Shown here: piece by piece, positions 1-6,713 of the stretch | Layout of the letters: the number at the start of each line of letters is the position of its first letter | Position numbering within the stretch: the stretch's first letter is position 1 | Position numbers and translations under genes: made by a program | Notes under the pieces: model-generated | Database searches by the model: none | What the model was told of the DNA's origin: nothing | The model's input: only the letters and a program-made list of their open reading frames with translations | Assembly: GCA_003510525.1 (NCBI GenBank) | Contig: DOMD01000208.1 | Span: forward strand, 1-6,713 | DNA: 6,713 bases | Direction of reading: 5' to 3' | Source of the DNA: Candidatus Omnitrophota bacterium | Lineage (GTDB): Bacteria > Omnitrophota > Gorgyraeia > Gygaellales > UBA12090

Positions 1-3000
1 CCTATATTAGTGTCTGTGCCCGGGATGTAAATAGCCCTATGCGGATTTTTAATGCTGCTTGTGAGTAAAATCTTCTTTTGCGCGCCTTCTTCATCCGGCC
101 TTGGCGGTTGCGGCTCGACAATCTCTACGGGAAAATGCGGCAAATCATTTTCAATAAATCTCATTAATTCAATATAATCTCCGATAGTTAAACAATCCCT
201 ACTATCTTGAAAGGCTCTGCTTACTATCGTAATAGCTTCTTTATTTAGGAACAGCGTTTTGGCCTCCCCAAATAAATCCGAATTATGCCTGTATTTAACA
301 CCCCCAAAGATACGATATATATCTTCATAATTAAGATGGTTTTTAACTCCGCTAACAATATAAGTAAGTATTATTTCCATTATCGCGCGCCTGTAGCGCA
401 AGACATCTAAATTGTCTAAATCTTTTGTCGTAGATCTAACTTTTATACCTTCACCATCAACAATGCCCATTAAGCCTCTGACATTCAAACCGGTATCGGG
501 ATTAACAATAATTTCCTCCATATCAATGGAGGAAGAAGCCTTATTTTCAGAATCCCGCGGTATGCCATAATCGGCGATATGTTTTTCCCGGGCCGCTTCC
601 TGCTCCCTGAGATATTCCCGCACGCTAAACAAACTTATATCATACCCGAAAATATCCCAATCGGTGTCCCTATGACCCAGCGTTACTATCTTGTTTCTAA
701 TGGCTTCGCTGTCTAAGAATTGGTCTATTCCTAATAATTTCCTTATACCGAATACCCTTAACTCATGACCAAGCCCTAAGTAGCGCCTCCCTTCTCTGGA
801 AATAATCCTATTCCAGGGCGCTATTTCCATAACCGCGTATTCATCCCTGCCGTCAGCAGTCGCCATATTTAAGTCAAGCCAGCCTTCTAAAGAATTCCCA
901 TCGAGAGAAAATACAAAATAGAGCCCCTCATGGGCCTTAGCCGAATCCTTAAGAAAATCTATATAATCTGCTATCATTTGTATATGCTCTGCATGGACAT
1001 TGCCTTTATAGAGAAGCCATTCTTCCAGATTGCGCAGTGCGGATAATTTTTTCTGTCTGCTTAAGCCGTCCGCCTTTACCACCGGCAGTTTAACCATATT
1101 CTTACCTGCGACATCCAACACAACCACTTCCCCAACAGCACAAGATGACGCGCCTTCAGAATAATTAACCCCTATGTCTAATTCATGAATCAGCTTATCT
1201 TGTAAATCTTTCAGGCCGGCAGAAAGCTCAACCTTGATTTTTCGGCGGATAAGGCGCCGCTTAATCCTGTTGCTTATGACATCAGCGGTAGTAACCAAAC
1301 GCACACCCAGTCCGGTGAGCTCTTTTAAAGTCTCCTCACCTGCCTTTTGATCCGCGGCCTTAATGGCATCGCTGACTAAGTAAACCTCTTTACCTAACTT
1401 AACCAACCCAAGGCAGGCCTTAAGGACACAAACTTCCGTGGCCACCCCGTAAACCACTACCTGCTCATAAAGGCTGAATATCTTAGCCACCTTAGGATTA
1501 TCAAAGACATCAAGACTATTCTTTTCAATAAAAATTTGCTGATTATAACCCTGGGCCAGGGTTTCCGGGATTTTATCCCAACTCTCCGTGCCCTTTACGC
1601 AATGAGGCGAATAGATATTAAACTCCGGGTCACCATCAACATGGGTATCACAAGTAGAGATTATCGGGATGCCTTTTCTCCTGGCAGATCCGGTCAAATA
1701 CCGGAGATTATCGGTTATCTTTTCCGCTTCGGGCACATAAAGCCCCCCGTTGATATACATAAAACCCTTCTGGGTATCAATATCCGCGAAGGCAAGCGAT
1801 GAATAATAAAGCCCAAGGACTTCTCTCTTCGCGCGTTCCTTAATCAATAAAAGCCCTTCTTTAGGATAAATCCGCTTATCCCGGCTAAACGCATGCACCC
1901 GGGGAGAAAGGACCTGCTCGCCTTTATCCATCATCCCTTGAATATGCTCCCCTTCCAGGGCTTGAATTACCCGGGTCAGCCATCCGTATTCATTAACTAT
2001 CCGGTAAATCATTCTTTTCCCGGGGAGAGTTGTCTTTTCCTTAGTGCCGCTTTTCTTGATTACCGGGCGGCCATTTACCAGGGACAACTTATAAACCCCG
2101 CCCAGGGCCGAGGTTTTTCCTCCGCAGGCAATCTGAGGCCCGAGACTGAAATAAGCCGGAAAATTAGCGTTAGCCGTAATATCCTCTACCGGAGCGGTCA
2201 AATCCTTATGTGGCGCCTCCAAAGGAATGCCAAAAATCCTGGCCGAGCGGATATTGGTTGTGCCAACTGCCCCCGCTATAAACGCTGAACGGGAAACCTC
2301 AATATTCGCCGGCCCTTGAGCCCAAGCCAAGGCATTTTCTATAAACGGCACTCCCTTAAGGACAAAAGAGACCCGGCTGACCTCGGTAGCTATCAGGCTT
2401 TGAAAATTCATTATATTAAGAATACGGGTTTCCACATACTGGGCTATCGGCAAGGCCGCGCGTATACTCAATATCGGCTCATTAGGAAATACCACGCTGC
2501 CTTCGGGCAGAGCCCAGACATCCCCGGTAAACCTGAAATCCTTAAAATAAGCAAGAAAATCCGCCTCAAATAATCCTAATGAATCCAGATATTCGATATC
2601 ACTTTGAGACGGCCTCAAACCTTCCAAATAATCCAAAATCTTATCCAGGCCAAGAGAGATTACATAATCCCCTCCCTCAGGAGCCTTGCGGTAGAAATAA
2701 TCAAATACCGCCGGCTCATTGATCCGTCCTTCCTTAAAATAAGCCTGTAGCATCAACAATTGATACAAATCCGTCTTCAGGGCATTACTATCCGGCTGAA
2801 CAATCAACCTATCATTCACCGGCCTGGATAGAGTAACTACCGGCCGGATAAAACCATCTAACTTATCGCTCATCTGGGCTAAGGAGTATTCTCTTATCCT
2901 GAACAAATCTCCGCTCGTCTGAGGCTTCAACTGTTTCAAGATAACCTCTTCCAAACCCGCGGTATTCGAGAGCGCGGACCGGCTAAACACACCCTCAAGA

Positions 3001-6000
3001 ATAGCCTGCTCGCCGCCAGTAACCATATTTGTCCCTACCCCAAAGCCGTCAATAGGCGCGTCCTGTTCAAGAAGCTCTTTGATTTTATATTCATCCAGGT
3101 CTCCGGAGGCAAGAATAAGAATTTTATACTGCTTTGTTCCGTCATACCCGGCATCATCAAATATCCGGCGCACTGCCTTAGCCTCCGCGTTTAGGTCTCC
3201 ACTATCCAGGCGCACGGCAAAAAGCCTTTTACCCCGGGCGCTTAATTCCTTGGCCACGATTAAGGCCTTTTTTGCTCCTTCAATGGTATTGTAGGTATCA
3301 ATTAAAAGAACCGGTTTTTTATCCTGATACACCCGGCCAAAGCTACGGAAGGCCTCTAATTCGGAAAGATGACTCATCACATAAGAGTGGGCCATAGTCC
3401 CGGAAAGCGGCAGCCCCAAGGCCTTGCCGGCATACACATTGGAAGTAGAAACAGCCCCGGCAATAAATGCCGACCTAGAGGCGAATAATCCGGCTTCTCC
3501 CTGGGCGCGCCTCAGCCCGAATTCGGCAACCGGCCGGCCTCTTGACGCCCAGATAATCCGGGAGGATTTAGTGGCGATTAAAGACTGAAAACCCAAGATA
3601 TTCTTTACAGCTGTTTTAATAATCTCCAGCTGTATCTTAGGGGCCTCAATCCTTATTACCGGCTCATTAGCCCTGACCAGCGACCCTTCAGGCTTCATCC
3701 AGGCCCTGCCCATGAAACTCATTCGCCCAAGGTAACCCAGAAAATCACCGTCAAATAAACCGGTAGGGCCTAGCAGCGCGATATCTTCATCGCTAAGCCT
3801 AAAATTCTTCAGATACTCGCAAAGCGCGTATTGGCCGCAGGCCAGGATATAATCACCCCTATAAGGGGCAACAGGCATCCTATAGTCATAGGCATAAACT
3901 TCTTCCTGCCGGCGAATACGGAATATCTCCTGGGCATCCAATAAATCATTAACGGTAGCTATTATCCCCTCCTCAACCGAACTGGATGAGGTTTTATTCA
4001 ATCGCTGACTAAGCCCTGCGAGGGTATTTTCGTGCAAATGTTTAAGAGCGCCCTCATCAACATCCCGGTTCGTGATTCCCGGCCCTGTCTTCTCCATCAC
4101 TATCATCATATTGCTGTCCGGCAAGGAAACCTGATTACCCGCCAAATCCAATAACCTAGACTTGCCTTTAAGATTCTTGATGTATCCCGGTTGGAGATAC
4201 GACTGCTCTTCTTTAGGCAGAGGAATTTCTTTTAGGTCAATACATTGCTCATTGGCTATCTCATAAAGCAAGCCCAAATACCCTTTCCTGGTCAAGACTC
4301 CGTATTGCTCTTTAACCTCATCCCAGAAGGTGCAGGGGTTAAACTCCGGCCGCCAGCACCAGGTAAGCTTAAACAGGAATTCCATCGCGTCTTTACGCTT
4401 GATAATAATCCTCCAGAGCTGATTCTGGCGGTCATCATCTATAACCTGGTAAGCCGCCTTCAAATCCCGGCCCGGGAAATGCCGGACAAAATAATCAAAG
4501 ACCTCTTTATTGGTTTCGCCCCTAAGTTCAAGGATCTGTTTTTCTTCCCCATCCTCTGGTATTACCCCGTCGCGGATAAGCAGGCGCCCGCCGCCTGACA
4601 AAGCCAGAAGCGCCTCAGCCAGGACATCCCTTACCGAATCCAGGTTAAAAAGCCGGCCGTCCTTACGGCTGTAACTGTAGATCTCATGGAGGACAGAGGA
4701 AAAAACTATGGTATCAGCCGAGGCAATTCCATCTTTTCTTAATAATTCCCTCAGTTCGCAGGCATCGCCTCTTACCGCTGTTATCAAGGAAAGGTTATGT
4801 TCCGTCTTTCTTTTATTTAAAGCCTTTATGGCCTCCTGGGATATTTCTATGGCCAGTATCCTCTCAATCCCTTTTTTACACTTTAGTTTCTGGGCTATCT
4901 CCAGGGTGGGGCCGTCAGCCGGGCCGATATCCACCCAGACCGGACCCTTACCATAGCTTAAAAGCCTGGCCTTATCATCCCAGGAAGAGGCCATTGCCTT
5001 CATATAGGTATCCTGATTACCCACCCGGTCAAACTGGTCCCGGCGCAGGCCCAGGAGATCCAACAACATATTCAGCGCTTGCTGATGCCGGAGGAGACTG
5101 CTCTGCTCATACATATAGATAAGCTCAAGAAGCTTGTTGGCCTCAGCGCTGAAAGAGAAATCAAAAGAAATGGCCTTTTGCCCGTCTATAACCATAGACA
5201 CCGCCCCCAGCGGTTGTTTTTTCTGATAAGATAAAGACTCCCGGTCAAACGGCTCTGCCGTTTCTGTATTCAAGAGGATATCTTCCAGGCTGATATCCTT
5301 TAACATCGCCTCCAGGATACGGGTCTTATAGGGATCAAACTCATGACGGCCGCTGGATAAGAGGCGCATCAGCTTAAAGAAATTGATATGAAACGGTTTT
5401 TCCATATCCAGCTCTTTTCTCTTGGCCATAGATAGGGCCAGGGCAATAACCTTTATCTGGGCATCAGCCATCAGCCCAAAGGTAGCGCTCTCCACATACC
5501 AGCCCTGGAGATAGCGGATATTGTCAAAAAATACCGCTAAGGCCTGCGGGCTTAGCGAATCTATTATCCGGCCTATTTCCTCACTTGGCTCGTCGATGTC
5601 CCTTCTTTCCTTGCGGAAGCGGCCTAAGCGCTCTTTAAGATACTCCCGGCGCAAGCCAACCGAGCTGAAGTTATCCCATCGGGAAAGCAACAAACCTTGC
5701 CAACTGGACAGGAATTTTCCGTTTCCAGGGGTGATTACCCTACGGAAATCCACGAAGAATTCCTCAAACTCGCGATTCAGGCGGCTGTCCATCAGGCCTT
5801 CGCGGATACTGGATGCATCCAGAAAATTAAAAAGATAGGCCGTATCGCTTATCCTCCGAGCTGCCTGATCCAAGTCGTCTTTACAGCCAAAGGCCGCGGA
5901 CAAGGAATAAAGATGGCCGCGCAGCCAGCCGGTAAAATCCTCAAAAACCTCATAAGTAACCTCACCCCTTATCCACTGGCCGGCCAGACCCCGGGTCTCA

Positions 6001-6713
6001 ATTATCCGATAAAATAATTCATTCAAGATATTTCGGTGAGGATGTTCCTCAAACAAGACGATATTCTCAAAAAGCCCTCTCCTTAGGCTTCCAGGATAAA
6101 TTTTATCGCGCAAGATTAAGGCCGAGGCCTTGTTGGGAATAAGCAGGTCCAGCCCTTTTATCCCCTGCCAAGCGCGCCTCAGCCGTTCCTGTCCGACCTT
6201 AGCAACATCGTGATAGAGGAAGCCACAGCGCAGATAAGGCAAGATGCCTTGTTTATTCAGGAACTTGACTATTTTAGAAAGCCGCTTAAACTCCTGGCAG
6301 GATATACCGGGGGCATCCTGGAATAAAGCGATGTCATATCTCTCCAGCCCCAGAAGCTTACGGCCCAGTCCGCGCTCAATGATATGCTTAATCAGAGAAA
6401 GGTTCCGCCTGCCGATAAGCGGAGCGGGGCTTATGTCATAGTTTGTTTCTTCCGGCTTCTGATATAAATAGCCGTAAATTTCCGGAAACAACTGTTTCAA
6501 CTCTTTCTCCCAGCTATTTGCCCTTTCCTTTAAGAATGGTTCGAAGGCCTCTACCATCTCAGCGGTATTGATATAAATCTTATCCTCGATAGCCTTGCGC
6601 CGGACGCGGGCCTCTGAAAATGAATATCCTTTTGTTTTTCTCTCCTTGCGGCCGATATTTAGGGCCGGGAATATCTCCTGCCAGCCATGCCAGCCTTCCA
6701 GGATAAAATCCAC
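1..6713 (-). CDS. Internal part of a giant multi-enzyme fusion protein (methyltransferase, tandem NAPRT, nicotinamidase)
   Basis: A single minus-strand frame stays open through the entire window: 2,237 complete codons (6713 to 3) without a stop, partial at both ends, so neither the start nor the ribosome binding site can be chosen. Recognisable domains lie in this one frame in the order HD-like, SAM methyltransferase, NAPRT core, NAPRT-like second copy, nicotinamidase and GNAT-like, separated by short linkers. Conserved motifs on both sides of each junction are in phase, so this is a real fusion and not several adjacent genes. The role visible in the sequence is NAD salvage from nicotinamide through nicotinate to nicotinate mononucleotide; the purpose of the other domains is unknown. 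I see no signal peptide or convincing membrane helix in this part. Enzymes of these families are normally separate proteins of roughly 200 to 550 residues. The frame and open reading are certain; the overall biological role is inferred. Confidence 0.97.
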   Translation of the reverse strand, partial: MDFILEGWHGWQEIFPALNIGRKERKTKGYSFSEARVRRKAIEDKIYINTAEMVEAFEPFLKERANSWEKELKQLFPEIYGYLYQKPEETNYDISPAPLIGRRNLSLIKHIIERGLGRKLLGLERYDIALFQDAPGISCQEFKRLSKIVKFLNKQGILPYLRCGFLYHDVAKVGQERLRRAWQGIKGLDLLIPNKASALILRDKIYPGSLRRGLFENIVLFEEHPHRNILNELFYRIIETRGLAGQWIRGEVTYEVFEDFTGWLRGHLYSLSAAFGCKDDLDQAARRISDTAYLFNFLDASSIREGLMDSRLNREFEEFFVDFRRVITPGNGKFLSSWQGLLLSRWDNFSSVGLRREYLKERLGRFRKERRDIDEPSEEIGRIIDSLSPQALAVFFDNIRYLQGWYVESATFGLMADAQIKVIALALSMAKRKELDMEKPFHINFFKLMRLLSSGRHEFDPYKTRILEAMLKDISLEDILLNTETAEPFDRESLSYQKKQPLGAVSMVIDGQKAISFDFSFSAEANKLLELIYMYEQSSLLRHQQALNMLLDLLGLRRDQFDRVGNQDTYMKAMASSWDDKARLLSYGKGPVWVDIGPADGPTLEIAQKLKCKKGIERILAIEISQEAIKALNKRKTEHNLSLITAVRGDACELRELLRKDGIASADTIVFSSVLHEIYSYSRKDGRLFNLDSVRDVLAEALLALSGGGRLLIRDGVIPEDGEEKQILELRGETNKEVFDYFVRHFPGRDLKAAYQVIDDDRQNQLWRIIIKRKDAMEFLFKLTWCWRPEFNPCTFWDEVKEQYGVLTRKGYLGLLYEIANEQCIDLKEIPLPKEEQSYLQPGYIKNLKGKSRLLDLAGNQVSLPDSNMMIVMEKTGPGITNRDVDEGALKHLHENTLAGLSQRLNKTSSSSVEEGIIATVNDLLDAQEIFRIRRQEEVYAYDYRMPVAPYRGDYILACGQYALCEYLKNFRLSDEDIALLGPTGLFDGDFLGYLGRMSFMGRAWMKPEGSLVRANEPVIRIEAPKIQLEIIKTAVKNILGFQSLIATKSSRIIWASRGRPVAEFGLRRAQGEAGLFASRSAFIAGAVSTSNVYAGKALGLPLSGTMAHSYVMSHLSELEAFRSFGRVYQDKKPVLLIDTYNTIEGAKKALIVAKELSARGKRLFAVRLDSGDLNAEAKAVRRIFDDAGYDGTKQYKILILASGDLDEYKIKELLEQDAPIDGFGVGTNMVTGGEQAILEGVFSRSALSNTAGLEEVILKQLKPQTSGDLFRIREYSLAQMSDKLDGFIRPVVTLSRPVNDRLIVQPDSNALKTDLYQLLMLQAYFKEGRINEPAVFDYFYRKAPEGGDYVISLGLDKILDYLEGLRPSQSDIEYLDSLGLFEADFLAYFKDFRFTGDVWALPEGSVVFPNEPILSIRAALPIAQYVETRILNIMNFQSLIATEVSRVSFVLKGVPFIENALAWAQGPANIEVSRSAFIAGAVGTTNIRSARIFGIPLEAPHKDLTAPVEDITANANFPAYFSLGPQIACGGKTSALGGVYKLSLVNGRPVIKKSGTKEKTTLPGKRMIYRIVNEYGWLTRVIQALEGEHIQGMMDKGEQVLSPRVHAFSRDKRIYPKEGLLLIKERAKREVLGLYYSSLAFADIDTQKGFMYINGGLYVPEAEKITDNLRYLTGSARRKGIPIISTCDTHVDGDPEFNIYSPHCVKGTESWDKIPETLAQGYNQQIFIEKNSLDVFDNPKVAKIFSLYEQVVVYGVATEVCVLKACLGLVKLGKEVYLVSDAIKAADQKAGEETLKELTGLGVRLVTTADVISNRIKRRLIRRKIKVELSAGLKDLQDKLIHELDIGVNYSEGASSCAVGEVVVLDVAGKNMVKLPVVKADGLSRQKKLSALRNLEEWLLYKGNVHAEHIQMIADYIDFLKDSAKAHEGLYFVFSLDGNSLEGWLDLNMATADGRDEYAVMEIAPWNRIISREGRRYLGLGHELRVFGIRKLLGIDQFLDSEAIRNKIVTLGHRDTDWDIFGYDISLFSVREYLREQEAAREKHIADYGIPRDSENKASSSIDMEEIIVNPDTGLNVRGLMGIVDGEGIKVRSTTKDLDNLDVLRYRRAIMEIILTYIVSGVKNHLNYEDIYRIFGGVKYRHNSDLFGEAKTLFLNKEAITIVSRAFQDSRDCLTIGDYIELMRFIENDLPHFPVEIVEPQPPRPDEEGAQKKILLTSSIKNPHRAIYIPGTDTNI
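3..722 (-). other. Unrecognised AT-richer tail of the window's ORF
   Basis: Residues 1998-2237. No catalytic family is recognised. The pieces seen are a charged helical part (VREYLREQEAAREKHIADYG, 2031-2050), a Ser-rich spacer (KASSSIDMEE), a stretch with DTGLNVRGLMGIVDGEGIKV that may be a small beta unit, a helical part with YRRAIMEIILTYIVSG (2107-2122), and a Pro-rich spacer (PQPPRPDEEGAQ, 2201-2212). After the spacer, KKILLTSSIKNPHRAIYIPG appears to open a further domain that continues beyond position 1. Positions 121-540 are about 36% G+C by hand count, against about 55% over 3361-3600, so base composition changes within the gene. Confidence 0.5.
723..1151 (-). other. Partial GNAT acetyltransferase-like segment
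   Basis: Residues 1855-1997. The stretch GWLDLNMATADGRDEYAVMEIAPWNR (1944-1969, given in two parts by its strands) reads as the central beta strands of a GNAT fold. It is followed by REGRRYLGLGHELRVFGI, in which Arg1977-x-x-Gly1980-x-Gly1982 fits the Q/R-x-x-G-x-G/A pyrophosphate-binding loop for acetyl-CoA, with a helix after it. The usual later strands with an Asn and a Tyr-x-x-x-Gly-Phe end are not clear, so the domain is either strongly diverged or shortened. Acceptor unknown. Similarity is by motif only, and a non-GNAT fold is possible. Confidence 0.5.
1152..1262 (-). other. Basic linker after the nicotinamidase
   Basis: Residues 1818-1854. It starts with a strongly basic stretch, KRRLIRRKIKVE (1818-1829), and continues with a short helical-looking part to about residue 1845. 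It joins the nicotinamidase to the GNAT-like segment. Nothing catalytic is visible. The basic run could contact nucleic acid or an acidic partner, but this is only a suggestion from composition. Confidence 0.45.
1263..1802 (-). other. Nicotinamidase domain (isochorismatase-fold hydrolase)
   Basis: Residues 1638-1817, close to the usual length of about 180-210 residues. Nicotinamidase hydrolyses nicotinamide to nicotinate and ammonia, giving the substrate of NAPRT. The catalytic triad is complete: Asp1646 in ADIDTQKGF, Lys1731 in FIEKNSLDVF, and the nucleophile Cys1762 in VVYGVATEVCV, where the preceding Val-Ala matches the place of the family's cis-peptide. The metal ligands of true nicotinamidases are present too: Asp1689 and His1691 in STCDTHVDGDPEF and His1704 in SPHCVKGTESW. 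The HCVKGT motif and the metal site favour nicotinamidase over other isochorismatase-family hydrolases. The end of the fold is visible in YLVSDAIKAADQ and GVRLVTTADV. It follows NAPRT-like domain B directly on the same chain, so product and substrate of consecutive steps are produced side by side. Confidence 0.93.
1803..2822 (-). other. Nicotinate phosphoribosyltransferase-like domain B (core-deleted copy)
   Basis: Residues 1298-1637. The N-terminal family motif is intact: LKTDLYQLLMLQAYFKEG (1312-1329), followed by DVWALPEGSVVFPNEPIL (1398-1415), the Gln-x-x-Glu-Thr helix (1425-1429) and NFQSLIATE (1436-1444). AFIAGAVGTTN (1477-1487) and FGIP (1494-1497) are recognisable. The sequence then jumps to a segment like the family's VGT region (YFSLGPQ, 1521-1527) and to TSALGGVYKLSL (1534-1545) with TLPGKRMIYR (1562-1571). 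About 100 residues are missing between FGIP and YFSLG, including the HSYV, DTYNT, RLDSGDL and SGDLDE motifs present in domain A. The EFGLRRAQG motif is also degraded (ENALAWAQG). Alone this copy cannot be a working NAPRT. It may complete domain A structurally, and it runs into the nicotinamidase with almost no linker. Confidence 0.9.
2823..3962 (-). other. Nicotinate phosphoribosyltransferase domain A (catalytic core copy)
   Basis: Residues 918-1297. NAPRT makes nicotinate mononucleotide from nicotinate and PRPP, driven by ATP, in the Preiss-Handler pathway. Family motifs seen in order: GFQSLIATK (1041-1049), EFGLRRAQG (1064-1072), SRSAFIAGAVSTSNVYAGK (1079-1097), GTMAHSYV (1105-1112) with the family's conserved His (1109), LLIDTYNTIEGAKKA (1136-1150), VRLDSGDL (1167-1174), ASGDLDE (1202-1208) and GFGVGTNMVT (1223-1232). 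The N-terminal part is diverged: NDLLDAQEIFRIR stands where the family has TDLYQLTMAQAY. The part after the VGT motif (residues 1233-1297) lacks the usual GGVYKL segment, so the copy looks incomplete at both ends while the core is intact. It is joined directly to a second NAPRT-like domain that supplies those missing parts. Confidence 0.93.
3963..4082 (-). other. Ser-rich interdomain linker between methyltransferase and NAPRT
   Basis: Residues 878-917. A hydrophilic stretch with the run TSSSSVEEG (residues 908-916) comes just before the first NAPRT-like domain. Its low hydrophobicity and poly-Ser suggest a flexible connection. A comparable Ser-rich piece (KASSSIDMEE, residues 2058-2067) and a Pro-rich one (PQPPRPDEEGAQ, 2201-2212) occur later, which suggests a modular chain with several flexible joints. 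Confidence 0.55.
4083..4991 (-). other. Class I SAM-dependent methyltransferase domain
   Basis: Residues 575-877. Rossmann-fold methyltransferase motifs occur in order: motif I GPVWVDIGPADGPT (residues 590-603), the SAM-binding loop in a D-x-G-x-x-x-G-like form; an acidic residue ending the second strand (Glu623 in ILAIEIS); RGDA (648-651) for the adenine-contacting region; DTIVFSSVLHEIYSY (667-681) as motif IV; and ALSGGGRLLIRDGV (704-717) for the late strand. A C-terminal extension follows with a Trp-rich stretch (KLTWCWRPEFNPCTFW, 782-797), EVKEQYGVL and PDSNMMIVMEK (865-875); from memory it resembles a family of bacterial methyltransferases of unknown substrate. It would transfer a methyl group from SAM to an unidentified acceptor. 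It lies directly before the NAD-salvage domains, but no motif ties it to nicotinate or nicotinamide. Confidence 0.85.
4992..5882 (-). other. Long helical region of unknown function before the methyltransferase
   Basis: Residues 278-574, about 300 residues with no motif I recognise. The composition is that of a folded, mainly alpha-helical, cytoplasmic protein: many Leu, Arg, Glu and Phe, few Gly-Pro runs, and no stretch hydrophobic enough to call a membrane segment. A short beta-like patch (GAVSMVIDGQKAISFDFSFS, residues 503-522) comes before a final helical part (residues 523-557) that leads into the methyltransferase. The last portion, with repeated Leu-Leu in SSLLRHQQALNMLLDLLGLR (residues 538-557), may be the helical N-terminal cap of the methyltransferase. 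It could be a scaffold or a domain too diverged to identify by eye. Confidence 0.5.
5883..6422 (-). other. HD-superfamily hydrolase-like region
   Basis: Residues 98-277. The sequence FLYHDVAKV (residues 165-173; His168-Asp169) matches the HD-x-[GA]-K signature of HD-domain metal-dependent phosphohydrolases. A possible earlier metal ligand is His110 in LIKHIIERG. Further on come IVLFEEHPHRN (His224, His226) and a segment around GQWIRGEVTYEVF (residues 245-257) that resembles the end of HD domains, where a downstream His and an Ile-x-x-Gly-Glu stretch are common. HD proteins hydrolyse nucleotides, cyclic dinucleotides or other phosphomonoesters, and the substrate cannot be told here. The match rests mainly on one short motif, so a degenerate or chance resemblance is possible. 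It is followed without a break by a long helical region. Confidence 0.45.
6423..6713 (-). other. Unrecognised N-terminal-side segment of the giant protein
   Basis: Residues 1-97 are rich in charged and aromatic residues and look helical, for example the Lys/Glu-rich stretch around residues 38-75. The first residues (VDFILEGWHGWQEIFPA) already read as the middle of a protein, so the gene continues upstream beyond 6713. I recognise no catalytic motif. It may be the lead-in to the HD-like region that follows, or the end of a domain outside the window. Confidence 0.5.

Follow-up and report, generated by a model that had tools for sequence, protein, structure and literature searches.

Can two damaged copies of one enzyme, joined on a single polypeptide, amount to one working active site? 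The question is raised by a 6,713-nucleotide stretch of DNA from a Candidatus Omnitrophota bacterium (GenBank assembly GCA_003510525.1, contig DOMD01000208.1, positions 1 to 6,713), which is the whole contig of a 65% complete metagenome genome and is hereafter called the window. It is filled by one giant reading frame encoding two adjacent domains, A and B, that resemble nicotinate phosphoribosyltransferase (NAPRT). A reading of the letters alone, made without database searches (the sequence-only reading), had described these domains as degraded in complementary ways and had proposed that they form one working and one dead site. We consider it probable, at roughly 0.78, that A and B are two unequal halves of one NAPRT, packed like the subunits of the ordinary NAPRT dimer, with the pocket of A completed by Tyr1317 and Lys1542 of B. 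The working pocket would then consist of the A barrel together with a helix and a strand of B, and would make nicotinate mononucleotide from nicotinate and phosphoribosyl pyrophosphate (PRPP), while the mirror pocket, formed by the B barrel and A, would be dead on both sides. Duplication would have let each copy lose what the other supplied, and such reciprocal loss would have locked the pair together.

Active-site residues kept and lost in A and B

NAPRT functions as a dimer of head-to-tail subunits whose interface houses the pocket, as described for the human enzyme in the parts of PMC4442680 that deal with its dimer and ligands. In the docked models of that paper (section 3.4), Y21 and K396 are supplied by monomer B, and L170, R171, G209, L211, H213, S214 and R318 by monomer A; the counterparts listed for Enterococcus faecalis NAPRT are Y17 and K333 on the one hand, and T162, R163, H205, S206 and R262 on the other. 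These models bear out the earlier proposal that an aromatic residue near the N-terminus acts across the dimer (Y21) and place the lysine of GGVYKL (K396) in the same class. By alignment, the Tyr in TDLYQ is Y17 and the Lys in GGVYKL is K333; RRAQG has R163 as its first Arg, HSYV has H205-S206 as its HS, and the Arg in RLDSGDL is R262. Y21 and K396 come from the partner monomer, so B alone shows both trans motifs, and the motifs of A are the cis ones.

Window residues were assigned with a profile built from 34 ordinary NAPRTs, themselves picked by motifs that include the Tyr and the Lys. The profile covers A over model columns 23-348 and B over columns 16-211 and 317-429, such that about 105 core columns (212-316) are absent from B, in agreement with the roughly 100 missing residues described from the letters. 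This deletion removes the core bearing the His and the second Arg, and just ahead of it the RRAQG motif of B reads AWAQG (Ala1463), with loss of the PRPP arginine. GGVYKL is indeed gone from A, where the corresponding stretch is EGVFSRSAL (1240-1248) and the Lys position is Ser1244. The reported loss of TDLYQ from the N-terminus of A held for the tyrosine, which is replaced by Asn922, but not for the helix itself, which is present in the predicted model (model residues 4-15). The residues named for the proposed site were correctly located on the minus strand (Tyr1317, 2763-2765; His1109, 3387-3389; Asp1139, 3297-3299; Asp1170, 3204-3206). The complete pocket set (Y17, R163, H205, S206, R262 and K333, in E. 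faecalis numbers) is found in A and B of the window jointly and in neither alone, and residues are missing on both sides of the mirror pocket. Coordinates are collected in Table 1.

Recurrence of the division among family members

Protein and genome searches yielded 21 family members, namely the window, the contig of genome G006 (P0002), the proteins P0003-P0011 and P0016-P0022, and genomes G089, G104 and G204. One protein search was confined to scoring the 7,986 candidates with the most words in common, and the protein searches were limited by protein length; a third search, with P0003 as query, matched only P0003 and P0019. Left out of the counts are P0012, P0014 and P0015, which are not A-B proteins, P0013, a near-copy of the window that holds only the start of A, and a locus of genome G382 (L174) with the same matches as P0017. 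Among the counted database proteins, P0003 is named as Candidatus Omnitrophota and P0008 as Candidatus Omnitrophus magneticus. The 21 rows are unequally independent, P0004 and P0006 for example being 88% alike in B.

Every B domain has the Tyr (21/21) and 20 of the 21 have the Lys by profile alignment, with P0009 added by its motif GGVFKL; Arg163, His205 or Arg262 is found in no B domain (0/21). All three of these residues are present in each of the 20 readable A domains, none of which shows the Tyr (17 were not aligned that far, and the other three have Asn, Pro and Asp). Where both sides align, the gap in B runs from columns 208-213 to columns 312-342; the gap of P0010 is larger (155-334), yet its Tyr and Lys remain, and the second half of P0009 did not align. 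Contig ends also impose limits, with A cut in P0002 and B split over two contig ends in G204. Hypergeometric tests that ignore relatedness give P 0.0039 for B, where both trans residues fall among 18 invariant of 280 columns, and P 0.0014 for A, where the three cis residues fall among 35 of 302 columns. Recurrence of the same division in 21 members indicates that the pattern is not the noise of one metagenome contig. The sequence-only reading had named one kind of homologue as telling against it, a homologue whose B domain shows the same degradation in the motifs that it should lend to A; 0 of 21 members are of this kind. As far as residue patterns can tell, a reciprocal, conserved loss that follows the cis/trans division of the NAPRT pocket is thus supported.

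The A-B tandem of the window is shared only in part by the homologues. A and B recur together, on one chain in all 18 proteins and in all six carrier genomes described below (three of the carriers being proteins already counted), but their adjacency is not general, with more than 260 residues between the two profile matches in 13 of the 21 members. In the three of these 13 that were scanned with Pfam (P0004, P0008 and P0018), a nicotinamidase-like domain lies between A and B. Such spacing means that chain geometry is not tight everywhere, as would suit a domain swap in which A and B pair mainly between two giant-protein molecules and not within one chain. Only 57 residues separate the matches in the window, however, and a single-chain model places both domains confidently (see below), so that we consider such a swap unlikely as the main mode of pairing.

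Predicted structure of the A-B pair

AlphaFold2, given window residues 918-1637 and 18 aligned rows, returned a model with a predicted local distance difference test (pLDDT) score of 85.6 and a predicted template modelling (pTM) score of 0.88. The model presents A and B as two protomer-like folds that are, by prediction, confidently placed relative to each other, since two similar-sized domains of unknown mutual placement would not be expected to score so highly; which surfaces meet is not visible from pTM. Both predicted domains have the type II phosphoribosyltransferase fold. A superposes on E. faecalis NAPRT (2f7f) at 1.8 Å over 360 residues and B on nicotinamide phosphoribosyltransferase (NAMPT, 7yqp) at 3.0 Å over 301 residues, and the fold matches of the model include NAMPTs and the NAMPT-like Namat (9w5w). 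A further candidate, in which B merely refills A to make a single NAPRT chain, was tried and rejected: when Foldseek matched the two domains jointly to a single 2f7f chain, the root-mean-square deviation was 24, which speaks against it, and A alone spans 2f7f residues 13-455, the first aligned pair in VIA-align being model residue 1 (A) with 2f7f residue 13.

Evidence against a composite NAPRT, and alternative functions

Several observations weigh against the interpretation of A and B as one composite NAPRT. With respect to the residues themselves, the evidence that Y21 and K396 act in trans comes from docking into a ligand-free, rebuilt crystal dimer, and a Y21A mutant cited in the same paper lost activity without ATP but had it only halved with ATP (PMC4442680, in the parts on these residues), so that the Tyr may not be strictly needed. 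The presence of Tyr and Lys in 34/34 ordinary NAPRTs is by construction of the selection, for which Arg163 and Arg262 were not used as criteria and the His only partly. Ser206 (human S214), a proposed contributor to nicotinate specificity (PMC4442680, same parts), is found in only two of 20 A domains, the window among them, the others having Leu (14), Ala (3) or Phe (1). A Lys stands on the K333 column in four of 20 A domains, although a GGVYK-type motif was found in B only. When the nicotinamidase-like domain was added to the fold, pTM fell to 0.77, with block pLDDT of about 27-58 for the added domain, which leaves no clean control. Finally, an ordinary NAPRT is also present in three of the six carrier genomes (G006, G104 and, in two frames, the window's genome G000).

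Two alternatives retain the pairing of A and B while assigning it a different role. In the first, A and B form a non-catalytic pair that serves as a sensor or scaffold by binding nicotinate, PRPP or NAD. The replacement of Ser206 in 18 of 20 A domains would suit such a role, as would the degraded appearance of other domains, e.g. one of two NadD-like domains of P0002 and the cysteine-lacking radical-SAM-like domains of P0004-P0006; yet a purely binding role is improbable given the invariant Arg, His and Arg of A, the retained Tyr and Lys of B, and the further domains of this pathway (nicotinamidase, NadD and NAD synthase) that the examined chains carry, P0018 among them.

In the second, the composite site is active on another substrate, such as nicotinamide or an ADP-ribose-type donor, the latter reportedly used by Namat. 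Both the structural matches to NAMPTs and Namat and the loss, from most A domains, of the proposed specificity residue would accord with this. Against it stand the nicotinamidase-like domain on the same chain, the Ser retained in A of the window, and the score of the frame with the NCBIfam NAPRT equivalog NF006695 (569.6 bits vs a cut-off of 469), and we regard a different substrate as very unlikely. A second NAPRT model, TIGR01513, scores 565.2 bits on the whole frame against a cut-off of 297.4; on pieces, A alone exceeds the cut-off (320.0 bits) and the B pieces alone do not (212.1 and 39.5 bits). The Pfam model of the NAPRT N-terminal domain, PF17767, matches the frame in two stretches (161.6 bits). 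NAMPT is not among the family and PDB sequence matches listed for the frame, in which the phosphoribosyltransferases are named as nicotinate or quinolinate enzymes.

Evolutionary history and distribution

In a tree of 74 rows and 158 shared columns, the A domains form one clade (99/94) and the B domains another (99/95), and in a quick tree of 104 rows each again sits on a single branch (94 for A, 95 for B). Constraining A and B to form one clade, as would be expected if each were the nearest relative of the other, gave a p-value of 0.545 in the approximately unbiased (AU) test, by which the grouping is neither rejected nor shown. B is under purifying selection, with a ratio of nonsynonymous to synonymous substitution rates (dN/dS) of 0.21 between the window and G006 over 334 codons. 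A short contig from an incomplete metagenome genome, whose ordinary NAPRT is itself in two frames, might be taken to hold a broken NAPRT gene, a repeat misassembly or a chance open frame. However, the same arrangement recurs in G006 (~80% identity), P0003 (55%) and 18 more members, and this recurrence, together with the dN/dS value, led us to reject decay or a chance frame; we give such explanations almost no credence.

A sample of 384 Omnitrophota genomes from a larger group was searched with the B profile at 1e-15. The profile matched 84 genomes, but only in six of them are both flanks of the deletion in B present (G000, G006, G089, G104, G382 and, over two contig ends, G204); these carriers fall in families f1, f17, f30, f52 and f56. 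Among the other 78, the match in G086 is divided over two segments of a single ordinary frame of 474 codons; in the remaining 77, the matched frames have 353-691 codons and the match is confined to the region preceding the deletion. In all six carriers A lies upstream of B in the same frame, with only the end of A visible in G006. A search at 1e-28 over 49 genomes of the class of G104 gave no additional carrier. In a collection of 84,980 species, a scan of genome contigs gave 168 relatives, the best 80 of which were examined with the B profile; a core-less B-type domain was found at one of these 80 loci (L037, the G006 contig), and the other 79 match as ordinary NAPRTs, which either have the core between two matching segments or match solely in the first segment. 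A single-piece match at L086 proved to extend over 310 residues of a 456-codon frame.

No NAPRT other than the A-B pair was detected in carriers G089, G204 and G382. A separate ordinary NadE frame is present in five of the six carriers (not G000), as is a separate NadD (not G006), and an additional NadE domain lies within the A-B frame in G089 and G104 or in another frame of the same or an adjoining contig in G204 and G382. The separate NAPRT, NadE and NadD genes make the giant proteins look like a second set for NAD synthesis and not the sole one, where such genes are visible. The stand-alone NAPRT of the window's genome (G000:C196:2763-3969) is broken near its HS motif, by a real break or a sequencing error, and a nicotinamidase-like match follows it.

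Relation to known systems

Like A-B, ordinary NAPRT (PncB, a type II phosphoribosyltransferase; human 4YUB, E. faecalis 2F7F) belongs to the family described by TIGR01513 and NF006695, shares the predicted fold and, once A and B are pooled, has the same pocket residues; the dimer with interface pockets known from the ordinary enzyme would be expected of A-B. In ordinary NAPRT two copies of one chain form a homodimer that has two pockets, whereas the A-B frame is not a homodimer of one full-length chain and comprises two different halves on one chain with one complete residue set. As its two domains are unequal, the proposed fused asymmetric pseudo-dimer is, judged from sequence, a variant of NAPRT and not an ordinary member. 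Namat has a fold related to the A-B model, but the sequence models point instead to NAPRT.

Excerpted accounts of trypanosomatid deoxyhypusine synthase and of S-adenosylmethionine decarboxylase with its prozyme, obligate pairs of impaired and dead paralogues, present parallels to the proposal for A-B: duplication, loss in one copy, and an activity that needs both. These pairs are separate proteins, in contrast to A-B, which combines reciprocal losses in both copies on one chain in a different enzyme family. Giant Omnitrophota frames have been described (PMC10066038, as excerpted) that resemble the A-B proteins in phylum, great length and poorly understood roles; there they are linked to adhesion, cell coat and predation, and 'nicotin' occurs nowhere in the text of the paper. 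Our literature search, outside which lay preprints and most subscription journals, found no published report of this A-B arrangement and no paper pairing Omnitrophota with 'nicotinate phosphoribosyltransferase'.

The family offers a natural experiment in the passage from a homodimer to an obligate asymmetric pair, in which the reciprocal losses can be followed one residue at a time through 21 members. The resulting pattern agrees, from evolution alone, with the cross-interface residues of NAPRT, a point that for the human enzyme rests partly on docking. For a portion of certain giant frames in Omnitrophota, a group of frames with poorly understood roles (PMC10066038, as excerpted), the A-B pair also supplies a testable enzymatic role. 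It points towards NAD metabolism that may be exported, in a phylum for which predatory or parasitic members have been proposed.

Domain order, companion domains and modularity

Table 1. Features of the giant frame and pocket residues of A and B (window positions, minus strand)
Feature	Coordinates	Strand	Remarks
Giant reading frame, 2,237 codons, no stop	3..6713	-	runs off the contig at either end; true start and stop lie beyond it
SAM (S-adenosylmethionine)-dependent methyltransferase-like region, residues 388-875	4089..5552	-	NF005379, 271.9 bits, below cut-off 602
NAPRT-like domain A, residues 916-1290	2844..3968	-	with own-pocket residues; without partner Tyr and partner Lys
NAPRT-like domain B, residues 1304-1637	1803..2804	-	with cross-subunit Tyr1317 and Lys1542; core columns 212-316 absent
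Nicotinamidase/isochorismatase-like domain, residues 1640-1815	1269..1796	-	alignment to nicotinamidase 1ilw spans its Asp, Lys and Cys regions
Asn922 (A)	3948..3950	-	position of cross-subunit Tyr (Y17 / Y21) in ordinary NAPRTs
Arg1068 (A)	3510..3512	-	E. faecalis R163 / human R171, PRPP phosphate
His1109-Ser1110 (A)	3384..3389	-	E. faecalis H205-S206 / human H213-S214
Arg1168 (A)	3210..3212	-	E. faecalis R262 / human R318
Tyr1317 in TDLYQ (B)	2763..2765	-	E. faecalis Y17 / human Y21, trans-acting there
Ala1463 (B)	2325..2327	-	position of PRPP arginine (R163 / R171) in ordinary NAPRTs
Core deletion in B, approximate site, residues about 1500-1525	2139..2216	-	profile alignment
Lys1542 in GGVYKL (B)	2088..2090	-	E. 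faecalis K333 / human K396, trans-acting there

Asp, Lys and Cys form the triad of nicotinamidases. Pfam detects such a nicotinamidase/isochorismatase-like domain in 16 of the 18 database or window proteins (not P0003 or P0022) and an NAD synthase domain in 12. P0018 carries, on one chain of 4,129 residues, PRPP synthetase-like, NadD, CN-hydrolase-fused NAD synthase, histidine phosphatase, NAPRT A, nicotinamidase-like, NAPRT B and NUDIX domains; its NCBIfam matches exceed the cut-off for NadD (123 vs 112.45 bits) and NAD synthase (500.4 vs 479) and fall below it for nicotinamidase (92.3 vs 174). P0002 has a nicotinamidase-like domain, an NAD(P)H-hydrate dehydratase over cut-off and two NadD-like domains below cut-off. 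We suppose that in the A-B proteins the adjoining nicotinamidase-like domain would supply nicotinate to the composite pocket and that the longer relatives would complete NAD synthesis with the NadD and NadE domains on their own chain.

A simple hydropathy script, as opposed to a dedicated predictor, found signal-peptide-like N-termini in 13 of the 15 members with a usable start (not P0019 or P0020) and in none of the 34 ordinary NAPRTs, for which the nearest Met was taken as the presumed start; the window's own N-terminus lies beyond the contig. Several of the 13 starts then read ALSP, and the proteins consist mostly of NAD-metabolism domains. As a tentative proposal that we would sooner doubt than adopt, Omnitrophota might export single-chain NAD assembly lines: signal-peptide-bearing giants in which a fused, irreversibly asymmetric NAPRT pseudo-dimer is surrounded by PRPP synthetase-like, nicotinamidase, NadD and NadE domains. 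Such proteins would convert nicotinamide to NAD beyond the cytoplasm or inside a host or prey cell.

The giant proteins seem to be built from modules, since a relative of the same genus (G001; L177, G001:C33) shares window residues 1-907 at 89% and then diverges without A-B. Its 18,421-codon frame fills a 55 kb contig and continues after the shared region with other sequence to the contig end, including, by eye, a P-loop module at the A-B position. Module order also differs in other proteins: in P0003, A-B is followed by a HAD domain and then by the window's N-terminal region (P0001, the window protein, residues 2-224, similar to P0003 1422-1636), and in P0013 a HAD-like stretch (by eye) and the window's N-terminal region precede A. 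Linker-like motifs (SASPLG, SSPLG, SASPI and SSSS) lie between domains at P0001 residue 909 and at P0002 residues 663, 1043, 1291, 1993 and 2547, and may mark module joints or cleavage sites.

A radical-SAM-like domain follows B in P0004-P0007 and P0020, with CxxxCxxC-type cysteines in P0007 and P0020 and some or all of these lost in P0004-P0006. Finally, the first NadD-like domain of P0002 (L117; residues 2565-2767) has the catalytic motif MFNPPTIAMS, which we take to be degraded, and the second (residues 3795-4006) has HNAH and SSSKIR, which we take to be intact; by their motifs, the two may represent another pair of unequal enzyme duplicates on a giant protein.

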